Part shown: positions 16,588 to 32,815 of the stretch, one piece after another
Numbering within the stretch: the first letter of the stretch is position 1
Layout: every line of letters begins with the position of its first letter
Assembly: GCF_016743215.1 (NCBI RefSeq)
Contig: NZ_VRZC01000013.1
Coordinates: 1 to 42,031 of the forward strand
DNA from: Geminocystis sp. GBBB08
Lineage (GTDB): Bacteria; Cyanobacteriota; Cyanobacteriia; Cyanobacteriales; Cyanobacteriaceae
Reading direction: 5' to 3'
DNA: 42,031 bases
Made by a program: the position numbers and the translations under genes
The notes under the pieces: model-generated
What the model was told of the DNA's origin: nothing
Seen by the model: only the letters and a program-made list of their open reading frames with translations
Databases searched by the model: none

Positions 16588-16955
16588 AATTTGACCTCTC
16601 TGTGTTAATCTCTTTTAAATTTTTAATCTTAAGTCGTACTTACTCCTAATTATGATTCCTAATTAATTGACTAGGATTGAAAAGAATAAGTATAGTTAGA
16701 TTTATCGTGATCTACTTTACCAAATTAAGAGTCTTTATTTACAAAAAATATTAATGATCCATTGACACAGAAGAATTTTTCAATAAAACACGCAAAAGGT
16801 TTAAATAACAAGGAAATATCAAGAAAAAAGTTTCAATATTCAACGATTAATTCTTTTTAAAATTTTATTAAGTAATTGTTACAAAAATTATTTTTTTTAT
16901 GGTCTTTTATATGGTAGAGCAATTATATATATGTGTTAATTGTAAGTATTATATT

Positions 16956-17669
16956 TTAGATTTCAGTGTTAAGATCAAAACCTTTACTCAATAAACAACC
17001 TAATATTTTAGCTTCTGTGGATTCTTGATCACATTGAGAAAGATTCCCGAAAGTATAAGTTTTATTTTTGATAGTTGCAAAACATTTTAAAATTTTCGTA
17101 GATATACTAAATTTTGTCTGGCATAAACTAATAGCATCCATATCTAAAAAATAACTATTATTAATTATGTTATTGCAATCATTTTTAGTAGTAGAATTAG
17201 TAAAAGCATTGCAAATATTTTGAGCCTTATCAAGAGCTATTTTATGTTCATATTGATAATCAAGTTTATTTTTATTAACATTTTTTCCCCTGTGTTTTAA
17301 ACAATCATAAATTTTATATTCATTAGTGCTGTTTCCGCATTTTAATAATTCTGAATCTGTATAAAATTTGTTACTAATACTTTGAAAACAGTTAATAGTT
17401 TGAGTAGAAATAAAAAATATATTTTCACATAAAAAAACTGCATTAAAATCTAAATAACTTGAATTATTAATTATCTCGTTACATTGCTGTCTTAAATCTG
17501 ATCTAGTATATTTTTGACAAATATTTTTAGCTATATTCAAGCCTAATTTTAAAAAATAATGGTTTAGTTGATTGAAGTTATTTATCCGATTATTTTGAGC
17601 GATAATAGCAGTTATATTAACATTAAGAAAAATCAAGGAGAACAATAGAGTAAATTTTCTAAATAACAT
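16956..17669 (-). CDS. Predicted secreted protein with two tandem six-cysteine modules, function unknown
   Basis: 237 aa, N-terminal signal-like segment, all 12 cysteines in two sets offset by exactly 102 residues. Confidence 0.8.
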   Translation of the reverse strand: MLFRKFTLLFSLIFLNVNITAIIAQNNRINNFNQLNHYFLKLGLNIAKNICQKYTRSDLRQQCNEIINNSSYLDFNAVFLCENIFFISTQTINCFQSISNKFYTDSELLKCGNSTNEYKIYDCLKHRGKNVNKNKLDYQYEHKIALDKAQNICNAFTNSTTKNDCNNIINNSYFLDMDAISLCQTKFSISTKILKCFATIKNKTYTFGNLSQCDQESTEAKILGCLLSKGFDLNTEI

Positions 17670-17728
17670 TTAAAATATCGGATAGTATCTATTATTTTAC
17701 TAATTTTTAATTCCTTCTTTATTCTAAA

Positions 17729-26533: not shown

Positions 26534-29500
26534 ATGACTAATCAACAACCAAGGAATTCAGAAGAGAATCAACAACAGTCGTTAAGTTTCGGGGAAAAAT
26601 TGACTGCTATCATCGCAAAACCCCAGACTCAGTTGGTTTCTTTGTTAACAATAATGGCGATTGTTGCTGGTGGTTATGTCGTAAGTCGGCATTTAATCAC
26701 AAAGGTTATTCCTTCACAAATGGAAAAAGAGTTAGAAAGAATTTTTGACAGGGATGTTAGTTTAGGGAAAGTTACCAGTTTTTCTTGGAATCAAGTTATT
26801 ATTGAAAATTTAGCGATTCCACCCACAAAAAAAGATGTTAGTTTTGTCGAAATAGACGCTATAAAAATTAATGTAGATTTGTTGTCTTTAATTTTCCATC
26901 GTCATTTATTGTTAGATATTATCGCCTCCGATGTCAATGGTTATGCGCAGTTAGATACTTTATTTGATATTCAGAAGCAAAAGACGTTACCAAATTCTCT
27001 AAAGTTACCCCCTTTACCGATTGAGACAATTATTAGTTTAAGGTTAAATCATAGCAAAATCGCCATTACTCCGAATATGGAAACAAAGGCGGTAGAGATA
27101 AAAACGAAAGGAAAACTTAAGTTAATTTATGATAATGATACTCAACCTTTAAGTTATGAGTTAGAGAATACGATTAATAATAGTGAGATTAACATTAAGG
27201 GAGAAACTTTATTAAGCAACACCAGTAGTAAAAATGAGTTAGAAATTCGTTATCTTTATTTGCCTGAAGTTGTCTCATTAATTCCTAATTTACCTTTAGA
27301 GATAAAGGAAGGAAGACTTAACAGTAATTTAGAATTAGTTACTCTTTCTTTGCCACAATTTCCACAGACAATTATCACCGGTAAAATTAGCTTAGAAGAT
27401 GTGGAAGGAAAACTCAATATTAACGAGATTAATGTTAGCAAAGAGATTAATAATATTCAGAAGGTAACAGATAAGGAAAAATCGAGGAAGATTCCCCTCT
27501 TGGAAAAAAGTTTTACTGGTAATGCTTCTTTAAATTTGCAAAACAATTCTCTTAATATTGAAACTGCTAATTTTACTTTCGGTGAGTTAGGAGGTTTTGT
27601 TAAGGGTGATATTGGTATCGACACTGGTTATAATTTGATGGCGAATCTTAATCCCGTTATTATCAGTAAAGTTTTACCGAGTTTAAATATTCAATCACCT
27701 GTTAAAGTTGATGGTTTATTATCAGGGAATTTTCTTGTCAAGGGAGAAATAGACAATCCGCAAATTTTAGGAAAAGTGAGGATAAAAAATAGTCAAGTAG
27801 ATAAATTAGAGTTAGGAGAAATTAATAGTCAATTTTTGGCAAATTTAGATAACGTCACCATCAAAGAAGTAACGGTTAAACCACCAACAGGAGGGAAAAT
27901 TGTCACTCAAGGAGTGATTAATACTAATTTTAGTCAAACTCTTAACGAAGGAAAATCAATAAAAGTGGAGAAGATTCCTTTCAATTTTCGATTTACTGCC
28001 AATTTACCTTCCACAGAGTTAATTAATAGTTATGATATTTTACCAACTGGCATTGATATAGGAAATTTGTTGACAGCAGGAGAAATTAAAGGGAATCTTA
28101 ACCAACCTCAAGGAAGAATATCTTTTTCACTGCCGAATATAACGGGAGAAAAATTAGGAATCATTTCGACACAAGGAAAATTTGTTATCAACAAAAATGA
28201 AGTTAATCTTCTGGATACCGAGTTAGTCATAAATAAAAGTCGTATCCAAATTAATGGTGAGAGTAATTTTAAGGAAAAAACTTGGCAACTTTCCGCACTT
28301 AGTAACAATATCAATCTAACTCCTTTCCTTGATCAATTTTGTCAAACTTCTGCTAACTGTGAGAATCTTCCCGTCAATTTTTCTTTGCCGATAAAAGCGA
28401 AAGATTTAGATATTAGTTTAAAAGGAAGTTTTGAAGAAGAGGAGACACAGAGACAGGGAGATTTGTTAGTTAATATTTCTGAAAAGGAAGAGAAGAGACA
28501 TGATGAAAGTAACGGGTTGGCAAAAATTAATTTTAATAATGTAGAAGGAGAAGGAAAAGTTAACCTTGTTATCAATGATGGTAATTTACGATTAGATACT
28601 CGTTTAGTTAATGGCAATTTATTTATTAACGGTAAGGCTAATCAAATTTCTGTCAATAATTTATTCCCTTCTTTACCGACAACTACTCATCTTATTAGTA
28701 GTCAATTTAAAATTAGTGGTGACGTTAAGGAGTTAATTGACATCGGTAACGAAAATAGAGAGAATCTTCCTCCGAGTTTAACTTTTTCTGCTGATAGTCA
28801 ATTACGCATTGAAAATGGTTTAGTTGAAACTGCTACTAAAATTGATGAGGAAAAGACAGAATTTTCTGCGGATTTTCTTAGTCAACTTAGTCTTAATCAA
28901 TTTATTCCTACTCTTAATGGTGAAGTTAACTCTAGTCAGATAAATTTGTCAGCAAAAACGAAGGAGTTATATCAATTAGCTAGACAATCTTTTAACTTCC
29001 ATAATTTTTCTACTATTAATAGTCTTAACTTGACGGGAAATTTTCAAGGTAGGTTAGCGGATGGTAATTTTAATACCCAGGCAAGGATAAATAATGGCAT
29101 CTTTTCCTTAGATGGAGTCACGAAAAATATTTCCCTTTCTCAACTGTTACCTGAGACGAAGATAAATGCTAAAAATCTCAATACTAATATCAGTATCTCT
29201 AGTAATTTTTCTGAGTTAGTGACTTTTGCGATTAACTATATAGATAGTCAAAGTTTTTCTCCTTTGCCGAGTTTAAATCTTCTTGTGGATGGTAAAACAA
29301 ATATTGCGCAAGGAAGAATCTTCCTCTCTACGAAAATTAATAACAGTCAATGGCAAAGTAATATTAAAACTCAAAATCTTAATCTCGAAAGTTTTAATCA
29401 ACAATTGGCTTTTCTTCCTTCTTCTTTCTTCCTTGAAAAAGAGATAAAAGGAGTTAAGCAATTTAATAACGTCAACAGTGAAATAAATATGAGGGGAAAT

Positions 29501-32500
29501 CTTCCCGTTTTTGGCGAGAAAATCACTTCTTTTCCTGTCAATCTTGAGTCAGCGTTTATTGAGGCAGGGAAAAATACTGTCAATGCAAAAGGTAATTTTA
29601 ATCTTGTCAATATCTTAACTAAACCAGATGTTAATAATTTACAACTGCAAGTAACAGCTAACTCTAACTTAAATATTATTCCTATTAATCAACTTTTTTC
29701 TCAAGAATCTTCTCGTCAAGGTGTCAATTTTCTTCCGCAATCACTGAATCTTGAAGGCAAGGTTAATTTTCAAGGAGTCTTGTCGGCGCAAAATTTATTA
29801 ACTAATCCACTAGGTAAAAATAATCTTAATATTGAGGGAAACTTAAGCCTAACTAACCTTAACTTTAATCAACTAAAATTTGAGTCTTTGTTGACGGGAA
29901 AAGTTGCTATCAATCCCAGTCAAAAAATTGTCTTAGATTTACGAGGAAAAGAAGACATCATCGCCGCTAACTTTGTCAAACAAAATTTATCAATTCCTTC
30001 GGCAAATTTAACTTTACCCTTCACTCCTAATAGTTTAGAAATTAATAAAATAGGAAACTTCCCCTTCAACTTTCAAGGAAGACGAGAAGATAATCAGTTT
30101 ATTGTTTCCCTTCACAACTTTTCTTTAGAAACTCTGCAACTGCAACCGGTGATTAGTTATGGAATCAAGGGGAAAATTCAAGGAAACTTGGCGACAAATT
30201 TTACTCTTAATTTAACTGACTTAACTGCTAAAGGTGACTTAAAGTTAAATAATCTTGGTATTGGCAACATTATCGGTAAGCAATTTACCACTAATTTTTA
30301 CTATCAAAATAATATCGCTCAATTAGATAACGGGCAACTAAAATTTGGTGAAACTATCTATGACTTGCAAGGAAAAATTAACTTAGCAACTCAAGACATC
30401 CAAGGCAAAATTAACTTACAAGGCAAAATTGAAGACATTTTTAACACCTTGAAAATAACCGATGTCGCTACCTTAACTGGTTTACTAAAACAATGGCAAA
30501 ATGAAAATTATTTCGTTGCCGCTTCTGCTATCCCTAGTCAATCTTTAGGAAACCAAGATGATTCCATCAAAACAAAAGTTAATCTACTTTCTAGTATAGA
30601 TGATCAAATCCGGGCGATCGCAAAACAAATAGAATCTGGTACAATACCTAATGATTTAGATATATCGGGCGCTTATGAAGGGGAGATTCTTCTCGGTGGC
30701 AAACTATCGTTACCTGAGATTGGGGTTAACTTAGAAGGCAATCAATGGCAATGGCTACCGCAACAACCTTTTCCGAATATCGTCAATAGTTTGGGTTTAA
30801 TAATACAAGAAAGTCAAGCAATTCCCATTCAAAAAATTGCCTTAAATGCCAACTTCAAAAATGATAATCTAACAGTCAATCCTTTTCGCTTAAATCTTGG
30901 CAACAGTCAAATTTTCTTTGCCGGAAATCTATCACCAAAAACCCAAGAAGGTAAGTTTCAAATAATAGACTTTCCTCTAGATTTCGTTACTGCTTTTTTT
31001 CCTCTACCTTTCGATATTAACAGTTTAATTGATATGGAAGGTAACATCGCTGGAAATTTGCTCAATCCTGAAATAAAAGGCAACCTAACTTTAAATAATA
31101 CTGCCCTCGATGGAGCAATAATTGAAGATAAAATAAACACCGAATTTACCTATAAAAACTATCAACTAGATATAGCAACTATTGATAGTAAAAATATTAA
31201 TTTTAATGCTTCTCTGCCTTACCATCCATTAACTATAACAGATAAACCTGCGATTATTAATTTACAACTAGATACCGAAAACATAACATTTTTAGAATTA
31301 CTTACCAAAGGGCAATTGCAATTAAAGCAAGGAAAAATATCAACAAATTTAGCCATAAAAATAGATTCATTTAATAAGCTGTTTAATAACTTTAATATTG
31401 ATAAAATAAAGCTAGGAGGAAACATAAACTTTGAAGATGCAATAATAAATAGTGTTAGTTTAAATACTCCTGTTAATTTATCAGGCAATATTAACTTAAT
31501 AGAAGAAAAACAAGCAATTGATGTAAGTAATTTAGAGGCAAAAATTAACAATACTGATATTAAGATAACTGGAATTTTACCCCTAATCAATCCATTAAAA
31601 GATAACGAAAATATTCTAACTTTAAATATTCCTAATCAAGCCTTACAAGTAAAAAATATTTACTCAGGAAAAGTTGATGCTGATATCAAGATTGATGGTA
31701 CAGTATTAAAACCTAAAATTGGCGGTTATGTAAGTTTAAATAATGGTAACTTTAGTCTTAGAGAAACAGAAACCAATAATAATGTATCCCAACCCAAAAA
31801 TAAACAACTGTCAGAAGATTGGTTGGGGAAAAAATCCGCCTCAAATTCTAGTTTCTTTCAGCCAGAGTTACAAAATTTTACTTTAAAACTAAATAATACA
31901 ACAGCAAATCAATGGCGATTTTATCGCTTTTTATTTGGCGGAGAATTAGTGCTTAACGGGGGAGTACTTAATTTAGAAAATCTTAGGGCCGATGGGGCAA
32001 TAAACATCCGTAGAGGGCAAATTTATCTGGGGGGTGCAAGTCCTTTAGTAAGTTTAACTTCTGATTTAGCTGTAGGACAAACTACATTTTTCTTATCTCG
32101 CACGAATAATAATAGAATAATCTTTGATAAAAATGAAAATATCCTCAATCCTGACATTGATTTAGAGTTACAAGCTGACATTGTAGATTATTCGAGACAA
32201 TTACCAACTACTCAACAAAACGAAATATCCGATCCGATTATAAGGGGAGGAAGGGGAGAAAATATACAGGTGGTATTAGGAATTAAAGGAGGATTAGCTC
32301 AATTATTACCAGTATTAGGAGATAATAATTATGGTGTGTGTCGTGTACCTGCTTCTACTCCGATAGCTGATAATATACAACTATCACCCTCACAATTAGA
32401 TAAAGTGTCACAATGTATCAATTTAGCGGTATTAAATAAACAAGGCACAAATTTGAATCTATTAAATTCCCCTTTAGTGTCTCTTAGTAGTACACCTAAC

Positions 32501-32815
32501 CGTAGTGAAGGGGAGTTAATTAACTTAATTATAGGGGGACAATTGTTCAATTTAGCCACTCAATTACAGGAGTTAAGTGGAGAGCAATTATTTGAAAATG
32601 GTTTAGTACAATTTATTTTAGTACCTTTAGCCAATAATATCAGTTTTGGGGTCAATGAAAAAGTAAGTACATGGGGTAAACCTTTAGGAATGAAAGATTT
32701 GAGAGTTTTTCCGTTAGTAGAGGGGGTGTATGAAGTGAAAGATAACTCTAATGTGACAGTTTCTTATGACTATATATATGGAGAATTTAAAGTGCGTTAT
32801 CAGATGCGATTTTAA
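26534..32815 (+). CDS. TamB/DUF490-family translocation and assembly module protein (AsmA-like)
   Basis: 2093 aa, N-terminal TM anchor, long beta-rich repeats, C-terminal DUF490-like region ending GEFKVRYQMRF. Confidence 0.9.
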   Translation: MTNQQPRNSEENQQQSLSFGEKLTAIIAKPQTQLVSLLTIMAIVAGGYVVSRHLITKVIPSQMEKELERIFDRDVSLGKVTSFSWNQVIIENLAIPPTKKDVSFVEIDAIKINVDLLSLIFHRHLLLDIIASDVNGYAQLDTLFDIQKQKTLPNSLKLPPLPIETIISLRLNHSKIAITPNMETKAVEIKTKGKLKLIYDNDTQPLSYELENTINNSEINIKGETLLSNTSSKNELEIRYLYLPEVVSLIPNLPLEIKEGRLNSNLELVTLSLPQFPQTIITGKISLEDVEGKLNINEINVSKEINNIQKVTDKEKSRKIPLLEKSFTGNASLNLQNNSLNIETANFTFGELGGFVKGDIGIDTGYNLMANLNPVIISKVLPSLNIQSPVKVDGLLSGNFLVKGEIDNPQILGKVRIKNSQVDKLELGEINSQFLANLDNVTIKEVTVKPPTGGKIVTQGVINTNFSQTLNEGKSIKVEKIPFNFRFTANLPSTELINSYDILPTGIDIGNLLTAGEIKGNLNQPQGRISFSLPNITGEKLGIISTQGKFVINKNEVNLLDTELVINKSRIQINGESNFKEKTWQLSALSNNINLTPFLDQFCQTSANCENLPVNFSLPIKAKDLDISLKGSFEEEETQRQGDLLVNISEKEEKRHDESNGLAKINFNNVEGEGKVNLVINDGNLRLDTRLVNGNLFINGKANQISVNNLFPSLPTTTHLISSQFKISGDVKELIDIGNENRENLPPSLTFSADSQLRIENGLVETATKIDEEKTEFSADFLSQLSLNQFIPTLNGEVNSSQINLSAKTKELYQLARQSFNFHNFSTINSLNLTGNFQGRLADGNFNTQARINNGIFSLDGVTKNISLSQLLPETKINAKNLNTNISISSNFSELVTFAINYIDSQSFSPLPSLNLLVDGKTNIAQGRIFLSTKINNSQWQSNIKTQNLNLESFNQQLAFLPSSFFLEKEIKGVKQFNNVNSEINMRGNLPVFGEKITSFPVNLESAFIEAGKNTVNAKGNFNLVNILTKPDVNNLQLQVTANSNLNIIPINQLFSQESSRQGVNFLPQSLNLEGKVNFQGVLSAQNLLTNPLGKNNLNIEGNLSLTNLNFNQLKFESLLTGKVAINPSQKIVLDLRGKEDIIAANFVKQNLSIPSANLTLPFTPNSLEINKIGNFPFNFQGRREDNQFIVSLHNFSLETLQLQPVISYGIKGKIQGNLATNFTLNLTDLTAKGDLKLNNLGIGNIIGKQFTTNFYYQNNIAQLDNGQLKFGETIYDLQGKINLATQDIQGKINLQGKIEDIFNTLKITDVATLTGLLKQWQNENYFVAASAIPSQSLGNQDDSIKTKVNLLSSIDDQIRAIAKQIESGTIPNDLDISGAYEGEILLGGKLSLPEIGVNLEGNQWQWLPQQPFPNIVNSLGLIIQESQAIPIQKIALNANFKNDNLTVNPFRLNLGNSQIFFAGNLSPKTQEGKFQIIDFPLDFVTAFFPLPFDINSLIDMEGNIAGNLLNPEIKGNLTLNNTALDGAIIEDKINTEFTYKNYQLDIATIDSKNINFNASLPYHPLTITDKPAIINLQLDTENITFLELLTKGQLQLKQGKISTNLAIKIDSFNKLFNNFNIDKIKLGGNINFEDAIINSVSLNTPVNLSGNINLIEEKQAIDVSNLEAKINNTDIKITGILPLINPLKDNENILTLNIPNQALQVKNIYSGKVDADIKIDGTVLKPKIGGYVSLNNGNFSLRETETNNNVSQPKNKQLSEDWLGKKSASNSSFFQPELQNFTLKLNNTTANQWRFYRFLFGGELVLNGGVLNLENLRADGAINIRRGQIYLGGASPLVSLTSDLAVGQTTFFLSRTNNNRIIFDKNENILNPDIDLELQADIVDYSRQLPTTQQNEISDPIIRGGRGENIQVVLGIKGGLAQLLPVLGDNNYGVCRVPASTPIADNIQLSPSQLDKVSQCINLAVLNKQGTNLNLLNSPLVSLSSTPNRSEGELINLIIGGQLFNLATQLQELSGEQLFENGLVQFILVPLANNISFGVNEKVSTWGKPLGMKDLRVFPLVEGVYEVKDNSNVTVSYDYIYGEFKVRYQMRF

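Follow-up and report, generated by a model that had tools for sequence, protein, structure and literature searches.

A lineage-restricted cyanobacterial protein of two six-cysteine modules, predicted to be helical and exported

The gene, its two modules and its surroundings

The window, a 42,031-nucleotide stretch of DNA from Geminocystis sp. GBBB08, is cyanobacterial as judged by eye from its genes, psbO and accD among them. An earlier note on this DNA, made from the letters alone, had placed an open reading frame at positions 16956-17669. The coordinates are right, and the frame is read from the minus strand (17669..16956); the plus strand has stops throughout this region. The following features were annotated:

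16956..17669, minus strand: P0001, a complete open reading frame of 237 aa for a putatively exported two-module six-cysteine protein, backed by orthologs and dN/dS
17598..17669, minus strand: predicted signal peptide, residues 1-24, with R/K followed by a hydrophobic stretch and proposed cleavage before Gln25
17271..17573, minus strand: module 1, residues 33-133, six cysteines and six predicted helices (profile match, E 2.1e-43)
16962..17270, minus strand: module 2, residues 134-236, with six cysteines and 43% identity to module 1 (profile match, E 1.2e-44)
16909..17728, no strand assigned: segment of about 820 bp with the gene, absent from the permease-psbO interval of genome G009 (BLAST/MAFFT of the two intervals)

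All 12 cysteines listed in the earlier note were confirmed at residues 51, 63, 81, 94, 111 and 123 of the first module and 153, 165, 183, 196, 213 and 225 of the second, and none lies outside the modules. Each cysteine is exactly 102 residues from its partner, and the spacing 11-17-12-16-11 is the same in both modules. Comparison of residues 49-131 with the segment 102 residues further on gives the claimed 36 identities in 83 positions, while the best of 20,000 composition shuffles gave 17; among offsets 20-139, 102 is the sole strong self-match of P0001. Within a module, the cysteines follow a C-x11/12-C grammar repeated every 29-31 residues. A three-fold internal repeat was dropped because the third unit is unlike both the first and the second, which are themselves weakly alike (z mostly 2-3). 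The same spacing recurs in the orthologs and single-module homologs described below, which is beyond chance.

A MacB-like permease gene lies 59 bp upstream of the gene and psbO 368 bp downstream of it, and the three share the minus strand; a promoter scan gave chance-level signals only. In G009 the permease-psbO interval holds about 36 bp in place of the segment of about 820 bp, and the gene is carried elsewhere. In locus L070 the permease, psbO and accD genes follow in order without the module gene. In both G009 and G011 the gene has a histidine kinase gene on one side and that of a small membrane protein on the other; in the source genome (G000), neither such a kinase nor the module gene was found within 1.5 kb on each side of the small membrane protein gene. 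Since the loci differ among species, the location is unstable and neighbours say little about function. Elsewhere in the window, a 2093-aa frame (26534-32815) looks by eye like a TamB/DUF490-type giant envelope protein.

Relatives of the module and its duplication

Homologs were present in 7 of the 15 genomes of the GTDB family searched. The two-module protein occurs in three genomes of the genus, the orthologs in G011 and G009 being 69% and 66% identical to P0001, with all cysteines kept and the spacing unchanged; the same search gave no match in G008 or G010, both of this genus. Single-module homologs of 135-148 aa with the same cysteine spacing are found in two other genera (G013/G014 and G006/G007), where the genes lie directly downstream of hisH; in the G006 protein Cys3 and Cys4 are one residue further apart. 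The single-module homologs of genus g3 (L006:1414-1818 and L007:1411-1854) carry a YGGC tail that supplies a seventh cysteine. When nine modules were aligned, the mean column identity was 56% and the six cysteines were among 17 invariant columns. With dN/dS of about 0.32 across the gene, P0001 is a real gene under purifying selection, although it diverges fast: its 69% identity in G011 compares with 92% for psbO.

Between species, first modules are 65-72% identical to each other and second modules 68-79%, whereas first and second modules share only 36-43%. The second modules of the three species cluster together in the module tree, and the three orthologs' six modules separate into a first-module and a second-module group; one duplication therefore predates the split of the sampled species. 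Because other genera have single-module homologs, the two-module protein arose by internal duplication, as had been proposed. The single-module form of g5 is closer to the first module (45-46%) than to the second (38-39%).

Nothing credible was found beyond the GTDB family in 391 genomes of the order and 386 of the phylum. Matches in other cyanobacteria with E-values of 0.0006-0.009 fell in frames with stops, in short frames or in small parts of long frames, and were attributed to chance. Scans of phages, plasmids, viral contigs and genome contigs revealed no relative, records near the window possibly having been excluded from the contig scans. Searches of Pfam, NCBIfam, PHROGs and PDB sequences returned sub-threshold matches only, and those to BrxA, a KCGN-repeat, a PHROG and chondroitin synthase (E 0.005-0.45) were likewise treated as chance. 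The suggestion of a new family is thus borne out insofar as the module stays below the cut-off of every Pfam and NCBIfam model: among the genomes searched, the module is an unnamed family restricted to one small cyanobacterial lineage. As these genomes are samples and the initial pass of the genome search was of limited reach, a distant relative may exist elsewhere.

Predicted fold, export and comparison with known proteins

An AlphaFold2 model of module 1, built with the nine modules aligned, has a pLDDT of 92.1 and a pTM of 0.83 and is predicted to consist of six helices (2-23, 28-39, 46-56, 60-69, 76-83 and 88-97 of the model), with one cysteine on each (22, 34, 52, 65, 82 and 94). Foldseek comparison of the model with the PDB and viral libraries gave no match at E <= 0.001, the best TM being about 0.33. 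Three disulfides per module are plausible, and two pairings would fit the helix layout: across short turns (1-2, 3-4, 5-6) or across longer loops (2-3 and 4-5, then 1-6). Cysteines 2-3 and 4-5 lie at matched depth, as judged from helix levels only. A new fold, in the form of a bundle of six helices and three disulfides that was born in one small lineage, duplicated in one genus and relocated among close species, seems to us a rather doubtful reading of the module.

The claim of secretion gained support from seven full-length homologs, in which Gln25 is invariant and the hydrophobic N-terminus ahead of it varies in sequence. Judging from these features, P0001 is probably exported. A homolog of VKOR, a disulfide-forming enzyme, is encoded in the same genome, and given this homolog the module cysteines would be oxidised in the periplasm.

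Several known domains were compared with the module. Saposin-like (SapB) domains are small, secreted and helical, have six cysteines and often occur in tandem; saposins open with CxxC. The first spacing of the module is x11 rather than CxxC, and there is no SapB match in Pfam or by fold. DUF6184 (PF19682) gave sub-threshold matches (E 0.1-0.6) to both the module family and the eight-cysteine family described below; the module family reaches 13.3 bits against a gathering cut-off of 25, or about half. The Helicobacter proteins HcpB and HcpC, which consist of Sel1-like repeats, are exported proteins of helical hairpins in which disulfides tie the repeats together (PMC3851747). They offer an analogue of the principle of disulfide-tied helices, but the module has no Sel1 or TPR match in Pfam and no Foldseek match, and membership in the Sel1-like/Hcp group was rejected because of the missing Sel1 match. 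The Cin1 repeat of the fungus Venturia inaequalis (PF20738) is a tandem repeat with helix-loop-helix units in a three-helix bundle (PMC4617103); one family member matched it below threshold (17 bits, gathering cut-off 27), and the solved Cin1 structure was not among the Foldseek matches of the module.

A widespread eight-cysteine protein and the reading of the module

A cyanobacterial repeat of the form C-x11-C with a pitch of about 30 residues served as the starting point of a further search; the composed query was a lead only. Of 120 genomes of the order, 99 yielded eight-cysteine proteins, the source genome among them (G000:C301:7691-8197; another member lies at L062:1183-1791, minus strand). 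A profile built from the members gave matches in 82 of 292 genomes of the phylum (E <= 1e-5), and the family also occurs in other orders of the class. The frames have about 165-300 codons and a signal-peptide-like start, and conserved RRP and LLP motifs are present. All 59 members examined share the eight invariant cysteines, with spacing 17-11-18-11-x-11-18; none of these members has naturally lost a cysteine pair. The gap between Cys5 and Cys6 is 28-55 residues in some members of this genus and its neighbours and 18-21 elsewhere. Three members scanned received no Pfam or NCBIfam name, and we know of no role for the family. The gene often adjoins one reading as rpsD; only this gene and one reading as moaA recur among the neighbours, which is not informative. 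The model (pLDDT 87.7, pTM 0.82) is a chain of helices with weak PDB matches in Foldseek, TAL-type helical-hairpin solenoids among them (TM about 0.5, E above 4).

The two proteins share a helical character, a signal-peptide-like N-terminus and the C-x11-C unit at a pitch of about 30 residues. The spacings of six consecutive cysteines are nearly equal (11, 17, 12, 16, 11 in the module and 11, 18, 11, 18-21, 11 in the eight-cysteine protein), the six cysteines of the module corresponding, by spacing only, to numbers 2-7 of the eight. In the DSSP strings of both models, a cysteine close to the end of one helix is followed by another roughly six residues inside the next helix. The module's middle hairpin deviates slightly, with Cys52 four residues short of the helix end. 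Were the module descended from an eight-cysteine protein that had lost its outer cysteines, the pairing 1-2, 3-4, 5-6 would leave no orphan partners. The two differ in distribution, the eight-cysteine protein being widespread and the module lineage-restricted and fast-evolving.

The module is a real, unnamed, lineage-restricted family of ordinary kind. Building on the observed reading frame, cysteine spacing, duplication, lineage restriction and purifying selection, we lean towards the view that it is a helical module stapled by disulfides and located outside the cytoplasm, where it would serve as a stable domain for binding or structure; it would work like the eight-cysteine type and may derive from it. 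Its cysteine grammar and the positions of its cysteines on the helices resemble those of the eight-cysteine protein, so it probably acts as a disulfide-stapled helical scaffold of that sort. P0001 would consist of two tandem copies of an all-helical domain of about 100 residues, exported to the oxidising periplasm or outside, where three disulfides would staple neighbouring helices into a compact, robust module. A non-enzymatic binding or structural role in the periplasm or at the cell surface is suggested because, cysteines aside, no set of residues resembling an active site stands out in the invariant columns; we found neither catalytic residues nor a genomic partner pointing to a function, and neighbours differ between species. 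Internal duplication in one genus would have given a form with two heads, which likely serves avidity or the bridging of two partners.

There is a considerable chance that the family is instead lineage-specific and of independent origin, its C-x11-C units having converged on those of the eight-cysteine proteins; it would still be a stapled exported module, with unrelated ancestry and role. Profile-profile comparison of the two families by hhalign was not significant (probability 0.1%, E 0.64-0.69), and cross-family HMM scores lay within the range of shuffles with fixed cysteines. The order and phylum genomes yielded only chance-level matches beyond one family. Foldseek found nothing for the module and weak solenoid-like matches for the eight-cysteine model, so the tertiary arrangements may differ. 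Against this stand the near-equal series for six consecutive cysteines and their like positions on the helices, and the Cys-anchored register gave the best cross-family similarity of 13 registers tried, though with a z of only 1.75 and about 4% of controls as good. As sequence kinship is not demonstrated, our claim is that the module works like the eight-cysteine protein, not that it belongs to that family; it may be a fast-diverging offshoot.

Two other readings are improbable in our judgement, each to the same degree. One is a secreted carrier of small molecules or lipids that works like saposins or arthropod odorant-binding proteins, by means of helices, six cysteines and a cavity inside. 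A domain of about 100 residues with six cysteines and as many predicted helices would fit this, and the plausible pairing 1-6, 2-3, 4-5 is that of Varroa odorant-binding proteins (PMC8222343); the module, however, has no significant fold match in the PDB, no Pfam match and no saposin-like opening. The other is a bacteriocin-like or otherwise antagonistic exported protein, which might be expected to be patchy and fast-evolving and to occupy differing loci. The absence from G008 and G010, the different genomic places and the fast divergence relative to psbO agree with this, but no immunity-like partner adjoins the gene, no phage, plasmid or viral relatives were found, no toxin family matches in Pfam or NCBIfam, and the gene is under purifying selection.

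The earlier note was right on the cysteine pattern, and its readings of duplication and secretion gained support; it had not seen that the frame is on the minus strand, that single-module relatives exist and that a widespread protein has the same cysteine grammar. The step from single to double module is a clear case of duplication, and related genera still carry the two states. Two cyanobacterial families of cysteine-rich helical proteins, both unnamed and apparently exported, come out of the analysis: one is confined to a single lineage, the other widespread. The latter, with eight invariant cysteines, occurs in the majority of the genomes sampled from the order, is without a Pfam or NCBIfam model in the members scanned and may be the more valuable lead.
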